From Acidimicrobiales bacterium (GTDB lineage: Bacteria; Actinomycetota; Acidimicrobiia; Acidimicrobiales; VFJN01): a stretch of DNA of 48,792 nucleotides. Positions 7,327-14,110 of this stretch are shown here, one piece after another. Location of the stretch: positions 1-48,792 of the forward strand of contig JAUXRW010000064.1 of assembly GCA_030681555.1 (NCBI GenBank), written 5' to 3'. The notes under the pieces were generated by a model. It was given only the letters and a program-made list of their open reading frames with translations, was not told the DNA's origin and ran no database searches. The position numbers were made by a program, and so were the translations under genes. Every line of letters begins with the position of its first letter. Positions within the stretch are counted from its first letter, which is position 1.

Positions 7327-9330
7327 CTACCGCCGGCGGCGACGGCCGGGGCCGGTGGCCAGCTGCATGCCTCGGCCGGTCACCACCATGCCCAGCCCCA
7401 CCAGGCCCATGGCCACGCTCATCATCACGCGGGTGTTGGCCGCGCCGGTGTCGGCCAGCGGGGCGCTTCTCCGAGCGTTGGTCGGCGTGACCGCAGCGCG
7501 CGTGGTCGACGAGGGCGAGGGGTTGGAGCTGGACGTCGTGGCGTCTGCGGCGGTGCTCGAGGTGGTGGCCGCCGCCGTGGTCGATGTCGTCGGGTCGGGC
7601 GTGCTGCTCGACGTGGTCGCGGAGCTCGACGTGGTCACGGCCGCCGTGGTCGACGTTGTCGAAGCCGCGGTGGTCGACGTGGTCGTGGCCGCGGTCGTGC
7701 TGGTGGTGGTCGGGGGCGGCGGCACCTGGTTCACGAAGAACGCCAGGTTGGAGTAATAGCTGTTGCCGGGGATCTCGGCGGGGGCCTCGCCCTGGCCGCC
7801 GCGGATGATGACCACCCGACCCAGGTCACCGTCACCGGTGGTGTCGGGGGCGTCGGCGGCGTAGGTGAAGGCCAGGGCCGCTTCGCTGGGCGGTGCGATG
7901 GCCGAGCCGCAGGTCCACTCGTTGTTCCCGGGGATGGCCGGGTACACGCTGGGCGCCGGGTCGAAGGCCGGGGCCAGGGTGCACGGCGTGCCGCCGTAGG
8001 CCGCCTCCTCCACGTAGTCGGGGAGGGACAGGTACAGCGTGCCGAGGATGTCGTTCGGCAGACCCGTGCGGTTCGGGTTCGGGACGGCCAGGCCACCGGA
8101 GTTGCCGGTGACCTGGGTGCTCTCGACGACGAGGTCAGCGGTCTCCAGGACGCGGCCCGAGAGGACCTCGGCCAGGGAGCCGCCGAAGACGACCATCTCG
8201 GCCGTGACCGGGTTGGGAGCGTCCGGCTCGATCTCGACCGGGATCACCCGGACCACGGTCTCGTCTGCGCCCACCGCTCCGACGGGGCAGAGGACGACGG
8301 GGGTGTCCGGGTCGGTGGTGCCGTCGACCGAGATGGTGCAGCCGGCCGGCAGTCCCCGCTCCGAGTCGGGGGTGACGCCCGGTCCGAGGCGGGCGGCCAG
8401 CGTGATCGCCGGTCGGTCGACATCGGGCGTGTACTCGAGCGACAGGGCGTTCTCGGTGTTCGGCTGCAGGTCGTCTCCGCTGAGCGAGCCCGACGTGTCG
8501 AAGTCGATCGTGGCGACGCTGGCGGTGTTCGGGCCGCAGTGGACCTTGCCGACCTGCAGGTCGATCAGCGGATCGGCGCCGACCGCGCCGAGGACCCGCA
8601 CATGGAGGGCCGTGACGTCGATCTCGCCGGGCTCGGTGGGGACCTGCTCGTTGGCGATGATCGACACGATCGGCGACAGGAAGGCCAGGCCCTCCGGCAG
8701 CACGTTCGAGTTGGGCGCAGGGACGGGGATCGCGATCGGGAACACCGTGGGCCCGAGCAGGCCGGCCATCTCAAGAGCGGCGTTGACGAGGTGGACCTCG
8801 CTGGTCAGGTTGCCGTTGGCATCAGCCGTGCACTCTGCGTACACCGCGTCCGCCCGGAGGCGCAGCAGGCCCTGGGGGAGGAGGTCGATGACCAGGCCGT
8901 TCCCGCCGGGCGGGTCGTCCACCAGGCAGACCTCCGGGTCGACCGTGACGGTGATCTGACCGCCCGGACCGACGAGCCCGGCGCAGGCGGCGGATCGGCC
9001 GTCGTCGCTCACGGCTGCGTCCTGGGCGATGACGCCGACGGACAAGATGTCGACGAGCTCGAGGTCGACGATGTCCCCGATGGTGGGTCCGGTGACCTGC
9101 GGGTCCATCGTCGTGTCAGCGACGCGGGGTTCCGGCGCGAGCAGGTCGCCGCCCGCCAGCTGCAGCTGCAGCCCCTGAGCCGTGGCCCGAGCGCTGTACA
9201 CCGTCTCGGTGGCGCTCGAGGCCGGGCTGGGGGTCAGGCCCAGGACCAAGGATAAGGCCACGAGGGTGGCACCGGCGATCGTCATCAGTCGCGACCAGCT
9301 GGACTTCGTCAATGCCACTCCTTGGGTCAC
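7327..9330 (-). CDS. Secreted cell-wall protein with Thr-rich stalk and LADTG sortase-type signal
   Basis: The 667-residue product has a signal peptide (SSWSRLMTIAGATLVALSLV, then a cleavage region near SPASSA). A beta-rich ectodomain of about 500 residues with several Cys follows, then a Thr/Ser/Ala stalk of TTSTTAA-type units (about residues 540-605). The C terminus is tripartite: LADTG, a hydrophobic helix (MMSVAMGLVGLGMVV) and a terminal RRRRR. That is the layout of a sortase substrate, with Ala replacing Pro of LPxTG. Ectodomain style resembles actinobacterial choice-of-anchor surface proteins; this is a weak match. GTG 9330 has GAGGA 8 bases upstream; TTG 9312, with AAGGAG 5 bases upstream, is an equally good start. 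No sortase gene is in the window. Confidence 0.82.
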   Translation of the reverse strand: MTQGVALTKSSWSRLMTIAGATLVALSLVLGLTPSPASSATETVYSARATAQGLQLQLAGGDLLAPEPRVADTTMDPQVTGPTIGDIVDLELVDILSVGVIAQDAAVSDDGRSAACAGLVGPGGQITVTVDPEVCLVDDPPGGNGLVIDLLPQGLLRLRADAVYAECTADANGNLTSEVHLVNAALEMAGLLGPTVFPIAIPVPAPNSNVLPEGLAFLSPIVSIIANEQVPTEPGEIDVTALHVRVLGAVGADPLIDLQVGKVHCGPNTASVATIDFDTSGSLSGDDLQPNTENALSLEYTPDVDRPAITLAARLGPGVTPDSERGLPAGCTISVDGTTDPDTPVVLCPVGAVGADETVVRVIPVEIEPDAPNPVTAEMVVFGGSLAEVLSGRVLETADLVVESTQVTGNSGGLAVPNPNRTGLPNDILGTLYLSLPDYVEEAAYGGTPCTLAPAFDPAPSVYPAIPGNNEWTCGSAIAPPSEAALAFTYAADAPDTTGDGDLGRVVIIRGGQGEAPAEIPGNSYYSNLAFFVNQVPPPPTTTSTTAATTTSTTAASTTSTTAAVTTSSSATTSSSTPDPTTSTTAAATTSSTAADATTSSSNPSPSSTTRAAVTPTNARRSAPLADTGAANTRVMMSVAMGLVGLGMVVTGRGMQLATGPGRRRRR
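7500..7716. repeat. Degenerate tandem repeat encoding the Thr/Ser/Ala stalk
   Basis: Units built on GTGGTCGACGT and close variants recur across this stretch on the plus strand. On the coding strand they give TTS, TTAA and SS units. Such tracts are prone to length change by slippage. Confidence 0.6.
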
Positions 9331-10047: not shown

Positions 10048-11661
10048 TCACGGCGATCTGGCCACCCGCACCCTGCTCCAGTCCACGGAGCCGTCCACCG
10101 CGTGCACGAGGCCCTCCACCCGGGGGGCCACGACGACCTGCGTCCGGAACTGCGCGATCGGCACCACGACGGCCGCTTCCAGGATCCGCTGCTCCACCGC
10201 CGTCCAGGCGGCCATCGCGTCAGGCCCGGATGCGGCCGCCTCCGCAGCCGCGACGAGCCGGTCGACCTCGGCGTCCTGGAGCCCCGTGAGGTTCTCGGGC
10301 GACCCCGACCGGAAGAGGGGCGCCAGATAGGCACCGGGCGCCGCGTAGCCGCCCACCCACCCGAACGTGAACAGCTCCTGGGCGCCGGAAACGACGAACC
10401 GCTCGTGCTCCTCGAGCGGCCGTGCCCGCACCTCGCTGGGGATGCCGACCTCGGCCAGCGCCTCGGCGACGATCGCCGCCAGGGCCTCCTGGGCCGGCGC
10501 CGCCTCGACGTCGATGGCCACCATCGGCACCGTGCCGTCGGGGAAGGCGGTGGCGAGCAGCGTGCGAGCGCGGGCGACGTCGGGCCGACAGGCCACGCAG
10601 GACGCGCTGACGTGACCCCCCACCCCCGTCGGCACGACCCCCGGCAGGGGGTTGGCCAGGTCCGGGTACACGGCCCGCACGATGGCCTCGCGATCGATGG
10701 CGGCGGCGACGGCCTGCCGCAGCTCGACCCGCCCGAGCGACCCGGACAGGCGCAGGCCGAGGAGCAGCTCCGCCTGGAACGGCGCGAACGCCTCCCGGCC
10801 GTGCGCCTCGACGGCCGCGCCGAACTCCTCGACGGGCACCGGGGCCCAGTCCACGTCACCGGCCTCGAAGGCCGCATAGGCGGCCCGGCTGTCGGCGAAC
10901 GTGCGCAGCTCGATGGTGTCGATGGGCGCCGGCGCCTCCGGGCGTCGGGCCAGCGTCAGGCCCCCCTGGCGCGCGGCGGTCACGCGCCAGGCGCCGGTGA
11001 GGTCGAGTTCGACGACGGGCTGCCGCAGCGCTGCGGGGTCGACGACGCCGTAGGCCGGGGCGGCCAGCACCTCGGGCAGGGCCGAGAGCGGGCGGTCGAG
11101 GGTGATCTCCACGGTGCGCGCATCGACGGCGCGCAGCCCCTCGACGTGGGGGGCGGCGCCGTCGACGAACGGCCGGAACCCCGTGACGGCCTCCAGCTGG
11201 ATGGCAGCGATCGAGGCGTCGCCGGCGGCTGCGACCCGTTCCAGCGAGATCACCACGTCTGCCGCGCTGACGGCCCGCCCGCTGGTGAACGCAGCGGCGG
11301 GGTCGAGGACGAAGGTCCAGGTGCGGAACGTGCCGTCGTTCGTCCAGCTGGCCGCCAGGGCCGGCGCCGCGCTGCCGTCGGGCTCGTGGCGGGTGAGCCC
11401 GTCGTGGAGGAGGTCGAGCACCATGAGGTCGCTCGGTGAGGCGGGCGAGGCGGCGGTCGGGTCGGCCACCAGCGCGCCGGGCAGGCCGAGGCGGACCGAG
11501 CCGGCCCCGGGGCGCGCACCAACGCGCCCGTCGTCGTCGCTGTCGTCGTCCGACGACGTGCAGGCGCCGAGGAGGGCGGTGAGGAGGAGGGCGGCGACCG
11601 CGACGGCGCCCGTCGCGACCGTCCGCGACGACCGATGGGGCGCTTGCGGGAGGGCCGTCAA
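10048..11661 (-). CDS. Family 5 (peptide/oligopeptide) ABC substrate-binding lipoprotein
   Basis: The 537-residue protein begins with a lipoprotein signal peptide (VATGAVAVAALLLTALLGAC, lipobox LGAC, Cys at about 34), then an acidic linker. The mature part has the SBP_bac_5 layout, with LMVLDLLHDGLTRHEPDGSA near the N terminus, ELRQAVAAAIDREAIVRAVY in the middle and a C-terminal lobe. Such proteins capture peptides or nickel and hand them to an Opp/Dpp permease, but no permease is next to it. The TTG start overlaps the secG stop by two bases (TTGA), so it is translationally coupled to secG. An isolated Opp-type ATPase C-terminal domain lies just upstream of secG. Substrate unknown. Confidence 0.85.
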   Translation of the reverse strand: MTALPQAPHRSSRTVATGAVAVAALLLTALLGACTSSDDDSDDDGRVGARPGAGSVRLGLPGALVADPTAASPASPSDLMVLDLLHDGLTRHEPDGSAAPALAASWTNDGTFRTWTFVLDPAAAFTSGRAVSAADVVISLERVAAAGDASIAAIQLEAVTGFRPFVDGAAPHVEGLRAVDARTVEITLDRPLSALPEVLAAPAYGVVDPAALRQPVVELDLTGAWRVTAARQGGLTLARRPEAPAPIDTIELRTFADSRAAYAAFEAGDVDWAPVPVEEFGAAVEAHGREAFAPFQAELLLGLRLSGSLGRVELRQAVAAAIDREAIVRAVYPDLANPLPGVVPTGVGGHVSASCVACRPDVARARTLLATAFPDGTVPMVAIDVEAAPAQEALAAIVAEALAEVGIPSEVRARPLEEHERFVVSGAQELFTFGWVGGYAAPGAYLAPLFRSGSPENLTGLQDAEVDRLVAAAEAAASGPDAMAAWTAVEQRILEAAVVVPIAQFRTQVVVAPRVEGLVHAVDGSVDWSRVRVARSP

Positions 11662-11888
11662 TCCAGGAGGAAGGCCAGGCCCGTGGTGGTGAAGACGAAG
11701 GTGAGGGCCACGACGACGGTGATGCGGTCGAGGTTGCGCTCCGCCGCCGCCGAGCCGAGGGCCGTGGCGCCCACGCTGCCGCCGAACATGTCGGACAGGC
11801 CGCCGCCCTTGCCGCTGTGGAGCAGGACGAGACCGATCAAGATCGCCGAGACAGCGAGGTGGATCCCGAGCACGACGTTGGTGAGCAC
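11658..11888 (-). CDS. secG: Preprotein translocase subunit SecG
   Basis: SecG is the small third subunit of the SecYEG channel. The 76-residue product has two hydrophobic helices (VVLGIHLAVSAILIGLVLL and ITVVVALTFVFTTTGLAFLL). Between them is the hallmark loop LHSGKGGGLSDMFGG with SVGATALGSAAAERNLDR, typical of actinobacterial SecG. The position downstream of tpiA matches the conserved gap-pgk-tpiA-secG order. GTG 11888 is supported by TAACCT 8 bases upstream, suggesting a leaderless transcript. Confidence 0.93.
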   Translation of the reverse strand: MLTNVVLGIHLAVSAILIGLVLLHSGKGGGLSDMFGGSVGATALGSAAAERNLDRITVVVALTFVFTTTGLAFLLD

Positions 11889-11896
11889 GGCGCGGG

Positions 11897-11902
11897 AGGT
11901 TA
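11897..11902 (-). promoter_or_regulatory. Predicted leaderless -10 (TAACCT) of secG
   Basis: The hexamer ends 8 bases before GTG 11888 and overlaps the stop codon of the preceding small gene. secG could therefore be transcribed independently of tpiA. Confidence 0.45.
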
Positions 11903-12148
11903 GACGACGTCGCGGACGGCGGCGAAGTGGCAGGCGGCGGGGTGCCCGACGGCGGTGGCCTCGAGAGGCGGCTCCATCTCGACGACGCAGGGCGTGGTGT
12001 CGGCCCCCTGCGCCTCGAGCTCGGCCTTGCGCCAGCACCGCGTCCGGAACCTGCAGCCCGTCGGGGAGTTGGCCGGCGTAGGCGGGTCGCCCTGCAGGAG
12101 GATCCGCTGTCGGGACTGCTCCCGGCGCGTGCAGCGGGGGTCATCCAT
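11900..12148 (-). CDS. Stand-alone oligopeptide-ABC ATPase C-terminal (oligo_HPY) domain, 82 aa, four Cys
   Basis: The product matches only the extreme C terminus of Opp/Dpp ATPases: RILLQGDPPTPANSPTGCRF, TRC, then two more cysteines in TPCVV and AACHF. Cys32, Cys38, Cys54 and Cys73 correspond in pattern to the cysteines that bind a 4Fe-4S cluster in some OppD proteins. The whole ATPase core (Walker A, signature, Walker B) is missing. A TGA in the same frame shortly upstream prevents extension. ATG 12148 has GGAGG 10 bases before it, so it could be translated as it stands. It may be a decayed transporter remnant or a repurposed domain. It sits between tpiA and secG. Confidence 0.6.
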   Translation of the reverse strand: MDDPRCTRREQSRQRILLQGDPPTPANSPTGCRFRTRCWRKAELEAQGADTTPCVVEMEPPLEATAVGHPAACHFAAVRDVV

Positions 12149-12203
12149 ACACCCAGGCCCTCCGGTCCCCGGCCCTGTTCACGCGTTCGCCACACGCCTC
12201 GGG

Positions 12204-12989
12204 CTAGAGGCGGTACTGCACGATCCGGGCGAAGTCGTCCGCATCCAGGCTGGCGCCGCCCACCAGGGCGCCGTCGATGTCGGGTTGCGCCATGAGCTCG
12301 GCGGCGTTCGTGGGCTTCACGGATCCGCCGTACTGGATGCGCACGGCGGCGGCGGCGTCGGCGCCCGACCGGTCGGCCACCACGGACCGCACGAGGGCGC
12401 ACACGGCCTGGGCGTCGTCGCTACTGGCGGTGCGGCCCGTGCCGATGGCCCAGATGGGCTCGTAGGCGATGACCATGCCTCCCACCTGCTCCGGCGAGAG
12501 GCCCGCCAGCCCGGCCTCGACCTGGCTGCGCACCTTCGCCTCCGTAGCGCCCGCCTCCCGCTCGTCGAGGGTCTCCCCACAGCAGAGGATCGGCGTCATG
12601 CCGGCCGTGTAGATGGCCGCCGCCTTCCGGTTCACCTGCTCGTCGGTCTCCCCGAACAGCTCGCGCCGCTCGGAGTGACCGGCGATGACGTAGGCCACGT
12701 CGAGCTTGGCCAGCATGGCGGGCGCCACCTCGCCGGTGAAGGCGCCCTTCTCCTCCCAGTGGCAGTGCTGCGCGCCCAGGGCGATCGGGATCTGCTCCTT
12801 CTCGCTCATGAAATACGTCTGCACCGTGCGGAGGTCGGTGAAGGGCGGGTGCACCGAGACGTCGACGGCCGCGTGGTCCTCGGCGGTCAGCAGGTAGGCC
12901 AGCTTCTGCACCATCTGCAGGGCCTCGAAATGGTTGTGGTGCATCTTCCAGTTGCCGCTGATCAGCGGCTTGCGTGTGGGGGTGCTCAT
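12204..12989 (-). CDS. tpiA: Triosephosphate isomerase
   Basis: TpiA interconverts dihydroxyacetone phosphate and glyceraldehyde 3-phosphate in glycolysis. The product has 261 residues. Key motifs are ISGNWKMH near the N terminus (catalytic Lys), AGHSERRELFGE (catalytic His), YEPIWAIGTGRTAS (catalytic Glu, flexible loop 6) and IQYGGSVKP with GALVGGASLD at the phosphate site. The ATG overlaps the stop of pgk by four bases (ATGA), so gap, pgk and tpiA form one translationally coupled operon. Confidence 0.97.
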   Translation of the reverse strand: MSTPTRKPLISGNWKMHHNHFEALQMVQKLAYLLTAEDHAAVDVSVHPPFTDLRTVQTYFMSEKEQIPIALGAQHCHWEEKGAFTGEVAPAMLAKLDVAYVIAGHSERRELFGETDEQVNRKAAAIYTAGMTPILCCGETLDEREAGATEAKVRSQVEAGLAGLSPEQVGGMVIAYEPIWAIGTGRTASSDDAQAVCALVRSVVADRSGADAAAAVRIQYGGSVKPTNAAELMAQPDIDGALVGGASLDADDFARIVQYRL

Positions 12990-14110
12990 CCGGGTCCCTC
13001 TCGTAGCGCCTGCAGGCCCGGGAGGTCGCCCTGCTCCAGGAGCTCGAGCGACGCACCTCCGCCCGTGCTGATGTGGTCGATGCGGTCGGCCACGCCGAAC
13101 TGTGCCACTGCCGCAGCGGAGTCCCCACCGCCGACGACGGTGAAGGCCGTCGAGTCGGCCACGGCCTCGGCCACGGTGCGCGTGCCGGCCTCGAACCGGG
13201 GATCCTCGAAGACGCCCATCGGGCCGTTCCAGAACACGGTGCGGGCATCGAGGATGGTGTCGCCGAAGTCCGCGGCGGAGCCAGGGCCGATGTCGAGCCC
13301 CATCCAGCCATCGGGGAGCGAGGTGCCCATCTGGCGCACGTCTCCCCCGGCGCTGGGATCGCCGATCTTGCCGCCCGGGCCGAGGGCCGTGACGTCCGAC
13401 GGCAGGCGGATCGCCGCCCCGCTGACCAAGAGGGCCCGACAGGTGTCGACCTGATCGTCCTCGCAGAGGGAGCCACCCACCGGGTGTCCCTGGGCCTTGA
13501 GGAAGGTGAAGCACATGCCGCCGCCGATCAGGACCTCGTCGGCGACCTCGAGGAGGGCCTCGATCACCGTGAGCTTGTCGCTGACCTTCGAGCCGCCGAG
13601 GACGGCCACGAACGGACGGTTTGGGCTCGTGCGCATGCTGCCGAGGACCTCGACCTCCCGCGCCAGGAGGCGGCCGGCCGCGCTCGGCAGGTGCCGTGGC
13701 GGCCCGACGACGGAGGCGTGGGCCCGGTGCGACGCGCCGAAGGCGTCGTTCACGTAGGCGTCGAAGCCCTCGATCAGCTTCGCGACGAAGGCGGGGTCGT
13801 TGCCCGTCTCCCCCGGGTCGAACCGGAGGTTCTCGAGGAGCTCGACCCCGGGGGCCAGGTCGGCGAGCCGGGCCCGGATGGGGTCGACCGACAAGGCGGG
13901 GTCGGGCGCGCCCTTGGGACGGCCGAAGTGGGTGCACGCGACGACCGTCGCCCCGTGCTGCTGCAGCCAGGTGATCGTCGGGAGGGCCGCCCGGATGCGG
14001 AGGTCGTCGGTGATCTGCCCGTCCTGGACGGGCACGTTGAAGTCCGCCCGGAGGAGCACCCGCTTGCCCTCGAGCGGCAGCAGGTCCTCCAGGACCGGGA
14101 CCGAGGTCAC
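12986..14110 (-). CDS. pgk: Phosphoglycerate kinase
   Basis: PGK transfers phosphate from 1,3-bisphosphoglycerate to ADP. The 374-residue product carries LLRADFNVPVQDG, THFGRPKG, LLENLRFDPGE and DAFGASHRAHAS in the N-terminal lobe. The C-terminal lobe has VLGGSKVSDKL, LIGGGMCFTFL, WNGPMGVFE and VVGGGDSAAAV at the nucleotide site. It is slightly shorter than the usual 390-400 residues but no core motif is lost. The GTG start overlaps the gap stop (GTGA). Confidence 0.97.
   Translation of the reverse strand: MTSVPVLEDLLPLEGKRVLLRADFNVPVQDGQITDDLRIRAALPTITWLQQHGATVVACTHFGRPKGAPDPALSVDPIRARLADLAPGVELLENLRFDPGETGNDPAFVAKLIEGFDAYVNDAFGASHRAHASVVGPPRHLPSAAGRLLAREVEVLGSMRTSPNRPFVAVLGGSKVSDKLTVIEALLEVADEVLIGGGMCFTFLKAQGHPVGGSLCEDDQVDTCRALLVSGAAIRLPSDVTALGPGGKIGDPSAGGDVRQMGTSLPDGWMGLDIGPGSAADFGDTILDARTVFWNGPMGVFEDPRFEAGTRTVAEAVADSTAFTVVGGGDSAAAVAQFGVADRIDHISTGGGASLELLEQGDLPGLQALREGPG

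Follow-up and report, generated by a model that had tools for sequence, protein, structure and literature searches.

An 82-codon frame between tpiA and secG of an Acidimicrobiales bacterium is most likely a remnant of oppF rather than a novel iron-sulfur protein

Introduction

Does a short open reading frame with four cysteines, located between tpiA and secG, encode a free-standing iron-sulfur protein, or is it what was left behind by a transporter operon? This question is raised by a stretch of 48,792 nucleotides (the window, hereafter) from an Acidimicrobiales bacterium. A preliminary description of the window proposed that the frame is either a relic of a lost Opp-type transporter or a repurposed small Fe-S module. 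Here the frame is compared with the corresponding loci of related genomes. Most likely it is an ordinary gene remnant.

Results and discussion

The 82-aa frame and its flanking genes

The genes and intervals concerned are as follows.

12204..12989, minus strand: tpiA, the left flank, 82-83% identical to same-genus genomes
12149..12203, minus strand: spacer of 55 bp from the tpiA stop to the ATG of the frame, including GGAGG; the rest of the opp operon is found here in relatives
11900..12148, minus strand: open frame of 82 aa, the truncated 3' end of oppF, with OppF homology from about residue 8 to the stop
11658..11888, minus strand: secG, the right flank, with a GTG start at 11888
10048..11658 (upper limit approximate), minus strand: gene for a binding lipoprotein of the SBP_bac_5 (Opp/Dpp) type, downstream of secG

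The frame runs from an ATG to a TAA (12148-11900) and has cysteines at positions 32, 38, 54, and 73, besides an additional Cys6. In these respects the preliminary description was accurate: the frame is real, has its own ATG and GGAGG, lies between the tpiA stop (12204) and the secG GTG (11888), and is accompanied by an Opp-type binding lipoprotein gene, which follows secG without an adjoining permease. The lipoprotein is 50-51% identical to the protein at the same place in the same-genus genomes G001 and G003, and similar lipoproteins follow secG in G001, G003, G024, and G063 (40-51% identity).

The distance from GGAGG to ATG is 10 nt, above the usual spacing, and the reading frame is already open from 10 codons upstream of the ATG. 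Codons 1 to about 7 are junction sequence, with OppF homology beginning only at about residue 8. The join left by the presumed deletion would lie either in the 12149..12203 spacer or just inside the frame, in its first codons; that an ATG is in frame is probably an accident. Note that the length of the frame says little on its own, as 63 frames of at least 60 aa occur in 11 kb at a G+C content of about 75%. It is the homology to OppF, not its length, that makes this frame more than a chance one.

Homology to OppF and domain content

The top matches of the 82-aa frame are full-length OppF proteins of G384, G210, and G004 (62-64% identity), each encoded at the same tpiA-secG site. The alignment covers the last ~75 codons of oppF and stops at the equivalent codon. 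Between the second and third cysteines the frame has a nine-residue insertion in common with OppF of G004, G005, G006, G011, G210, and G384 (the family-specific sequence is RKAELEAQGADTTPC; G210 has RKAELEAAGTDTSAC), while no such insertion is found in 88 of the 99 full-length OppF tails compared. A tree of the tails places the frame beside G004, G005, and G006, which belong to the same family as the window genome, with weak support from columns too few for a firm placement.

The frame had been described as the oligo_HPY tail domain. The C-terminal part of this domain is indeed present, but the domain is incomplete, its first half being missing. Pfam oligo_HPY (PF08352) matches over positions 32-62 of 65 only, with 23.4 bits against a curated cut-off of 27.1, and NCBIfam TIGR01727 over positions 31-86 of 87, with 33.6 bits against 37.6; neither model is matched over the whole domain at its curated score. 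Walker A, Walker B, and the ABC signature are absent from the 82 residues, and the frame does not encode an OppF/DppF ATPase. It is thus like the C-terminal region of OppF/DppF (PF08352, TIGR01727) in its sequence after the first ~7 residues, in its four cysteines, and in its C-terminal end, but unlike it in having no ATPase domain and no first oligo_HPY half, and in scoring below both cut-offs. AlphaFold2 gave a poor, low-confidence model for the fragment alone (pLDDT 55.9, pTM 0.27).

The tpiA-secG site in related genomes

A full-length oppF exists between tpiA and secG in 39 of the 65 other loci that have both genes; this set of loci is non-random, with one family (f7) enriched, and the fraction is not a frequency. 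In two respects the frame is as a gene remnant should be: a full-length counterpart occupies the same position in relatives, and the frame itself is short, truncated, and without catalytic motifs. At this site oppF is almost always part of a full opp operon, usually as the last gene before secG. Such sites are found in the same genus (G001 and G003, with another gene order) and in the same family (G004 and G005). In other relatives the opp operon comes after secG or does not exist. The operon takes up ~6 kb at the site in relatives, whereas only 55 bp precede the frame in the window. These operons at the exact site in many relatives strongly support the first reading of the preliminary description, a relic of a lost transporter. 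It had also set a full-length ATPase here in relatives against the Fe-S module, and that is what was found.

The site varies in other ways as well. L037 (G004:C106) carries a tandem pair of complete opp operons between tpiA and secG, and in L034 and L035, from the window's genus, the opp genes are ordered B-D-F-C. In the flipped locus L159 (G287:C15, 2117-3625), all that remains between tpiA and secG is a gene for an Opp-type binding protein, which represents a further stage of operon loss.

An independent oppF tail is found in the distant genome G187 (L149, G187:C76, 5426-5791). It consists of the last ~130 codons and begins ~85 bp or less after tpiA. Its second cluster cysteine is tyrosine, and the contig ends at the tail, before any secG. 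Within the genus of G187, the full operon exists in G399 and G416 and none in G428. Since the genus includes full operons, no operon, and a tail with a Cys to Tyr change, loss of the operon at this site is recurrent, and a tail can survive in the absence of the cluster ligands.

Probable origin of the frame by operon deletion

The 82-aa frame is very probably a remnant, the surviving end of oppF after deletion of an opp operon. It lies at the site of an intact operon in relatives, is homologous to the oppF of that operon, and is truncated. That a deletion caused this arrangement, and did so too recently for the frame to have closed, is what we infer. The ancestral order would have been tpiA-oppA-oppB-oppC-oppD-oppF-secG-SBP, which is still kept in many relatives. 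A deletion of ~6 kb would have removed oppABCD and roughly the first 250 codons of oppF. The DNA downstream of tpiA would thereby have been joined to the remaining ~75 codons of oppF, and an ATG upstream of these would fall in frame by chance. Transcription of the fragment, if any, would be by read-through from gap-pgk-tpiA, and the fragment would presumably have no protein function. Peptide uptake would still be possible through the complete oppABCDF on contig C13. Deletion remnants (pseudogene fragments) of this kind are known in bacteria as truncated homologues where relatives have the intact gene at the same position, and G187 provides a parallel; the fragment in the window differs in that its frame, which has an ATG of its own, is still intact.

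Two points count against a remnant. One is that G001 and G003, of the same genus, have a differently ordered opp set whose OppF is without the insertion. Because this set differs, the immediate ancestral state is drawn from G004, G005, G006, G210, and G384. The other is that the frame is little decayed for a relic. Its GC3 (0.95) is like that of neighbouring genes, and its pN/pS against relatives is inside the range between functional copies, a view of selection taken from the one genome that carries the frame. Of the 19 near-invariant residues 18 are kept, the one lost being P28S (Pro in 97/99 tails), and one residue has been inserted after Cys54. Neutral decay was simulated with F81-type substitution and an assumed indel rate, the outcome scored being an open frame with no more than 1 of the 19 invariants changed. 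For 0.05 substitutions per site the probability of this outcome is 0.25, falling to 0.03 for 0.1 and to 0.006 for 0.15, which sets a ceiling of ~0.1-0.15 substitutions per site since the end of constraint. The little decay implies either that the deletion is recent (young compared with the split of genera) or that the frame is still constrained.

Possible retention of the stretch as the secG promoter

Part of the stretch may have been retained as DNA: the secG promoter would lie at the end of the oppF tail, with the reading frame a passenger. A TANNNT hexamer is located 6-9 nt before the in-frame secG start in 49 of 67 loci (at exactly 8 nt in 36), compared with 1 of 67 for a control interval. 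In the window the following hexamer overlaps the stop codon of the frame.

11897..11902, minus strand: TAACCT, probable -10 element of secG at a distance of 8 nt from the GTG; the TAA with which it begins is the stop of the oppF tail

Leaderless transcription is established for actinobacteria, and as a sequence pattern the conserved TANNNT of secG in this order fits it. The extreme 3' end of the oppF tail may thus have been kept as the carrier of the secG -10 box. This would account for only the last ~40 bp, not for 249 bp, and a scan of 11500-13100 for sigma-70 consensus promoters and terminators found nothing. We regard such retention as a real possibility, although somewhat short of an even chance. 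It is compatible with a remnant but is no substitute for it.

The four cysteines and a possible Fe-S protein

In E. coli, the equivalent cysteines of DppD and DppF ligate a 4Fe-4S cluster that is required for assembly of the complex, holding DppBCDF together (PMC12136057). If the tail were translated, it could in principle bind a 4Fe-4S cluster through Cys32, Cys38, Cys54, and Cys73 and act in trans, for example on the OppDF pair encoded in full on C13. In addition to the E. coli precedent and the available partner, the open frame with ATG and GGAGG, the four retained cysteines, the coding-like GC3, and the little decay could be taken to favour such a protein.

The four cysteines of the frame are at the ligand positions of the OppD/DppF type of 4Fe-4S protein, but all four columns of the alignment are Cys in 99/99 full-length OppF tails, and the cysteines of the frame were therefore inherited from OppF. 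Their arrangement had been given as that of 4Fe-4S-binding OppD proteins, which is right for the positions but not for all of the spacings. The frame has C-x5-C-x15-C-x18-C, while the solved E. coli DppD/DppF domains (8z1v, 8z1w) have C-x5-C-x6-C-x16/17-C (PMC12136057). The order of the cysteines and the first C-x5-C are alike, with DppF matched at residues 10-41, and the OppF proteins of the frame's own family have this longer middle loop as well. The E. coli domains also differ in being fused to the ATPase and working inside an assembled transporter.

No stand-alone relative came to light. There is no other stand-alone copy among 80 GTDB loci or among the best matches in 397 genomes of the order, in which the sole comparable tail, that of G187, had lost a cysteine; the related genomes searched in this way thus gave no short orthologous frames of the kind that a conserved small-protein family would have in sister genomes. 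Stand-alone oligo_HPY proteins were also sought in the literature, and none turned up. Several short frames were considered and rejected. Among the GTDB loci, 24 short-frame matches were cut by the end of the locus or contig (20) or were frameshifted or had a Walker motif (4). The short frame of G284 runs off the contig end, and that of G187 is the true oppF tail remnant with its second Cys changed to Tyr. The one in G046 is a frameshifted oppF; there, in the flipped locus L147 (G046:C4, ~8142-8459), the frameshift splits oppF, which may be a pseudogene or the product of a sequencing error.

With the inherited cysteines, the lack of a stand-alone relative, the missing first half of oligo_HPY, and the poor predicted fold, a repurposed Fe-S protein is very unlikely, and the module once suggested has no positive support. 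Its more specific form, in which after loss of the operon the OppF tail came to be translated as a small Fe-S protein, with a role in stabilising or tuning the C13 OppDF and with selection on the four cysteines, is highly improbable. Nothing cited for an Fe-S module goes beyond what inheritance explains. The locus is a clear case of how deletion of an operon can leave a short intact frame with a cofactor motif that resembles a new small protein, and ligand residues conserved in a lone fragment are uninformative before a comparison with the parent gene. Should the fragment prove functional, it would provide a rare example of the Fe-S tail of a transporter serving as a separate subunit.

Assembly error and insertion as less likely alternatives

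The join of tpiA to the oppF tail might have been made by the assembler, with the operon in fact intact. The genome is a draft of 162 contigs and the exact join exists in this genome only. A similar join arose independently in G187, however, and apart from the complete pair on C13 the genome has no further oligo_HPY ATPases; no contig was seen with the lost end of another opp set. An assembly artefact is therefore very improbable. The alternative to a deletion, that a fragment of oppF was inserted, is the less simple explanation, given the whole operon at the exact site in relatives.

Opp genes elsewhere in the genome

Opp permease and ATPase genes, for which the preliminary description advised a search, are present as a complete oppABCDF on C13, in which the ATPases lie beside their own permeases. 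The whole genome has three oligo_HPY matches, the 82-aa frame and the complete C13 pair. The orphan lipoprotein encoded after secG may serve the C13 transporter. Another SBP_bac_5 match, on C157, was considered as the missing oppA and rejected, as it belongs to an unrelated and possibly foreign gene set. This locus, L144 (G000:C157), is 3.3 kb long and consists of an alanine-racemase-like end, an XRE regulator, and a binding protein; it is a possible contaminant.
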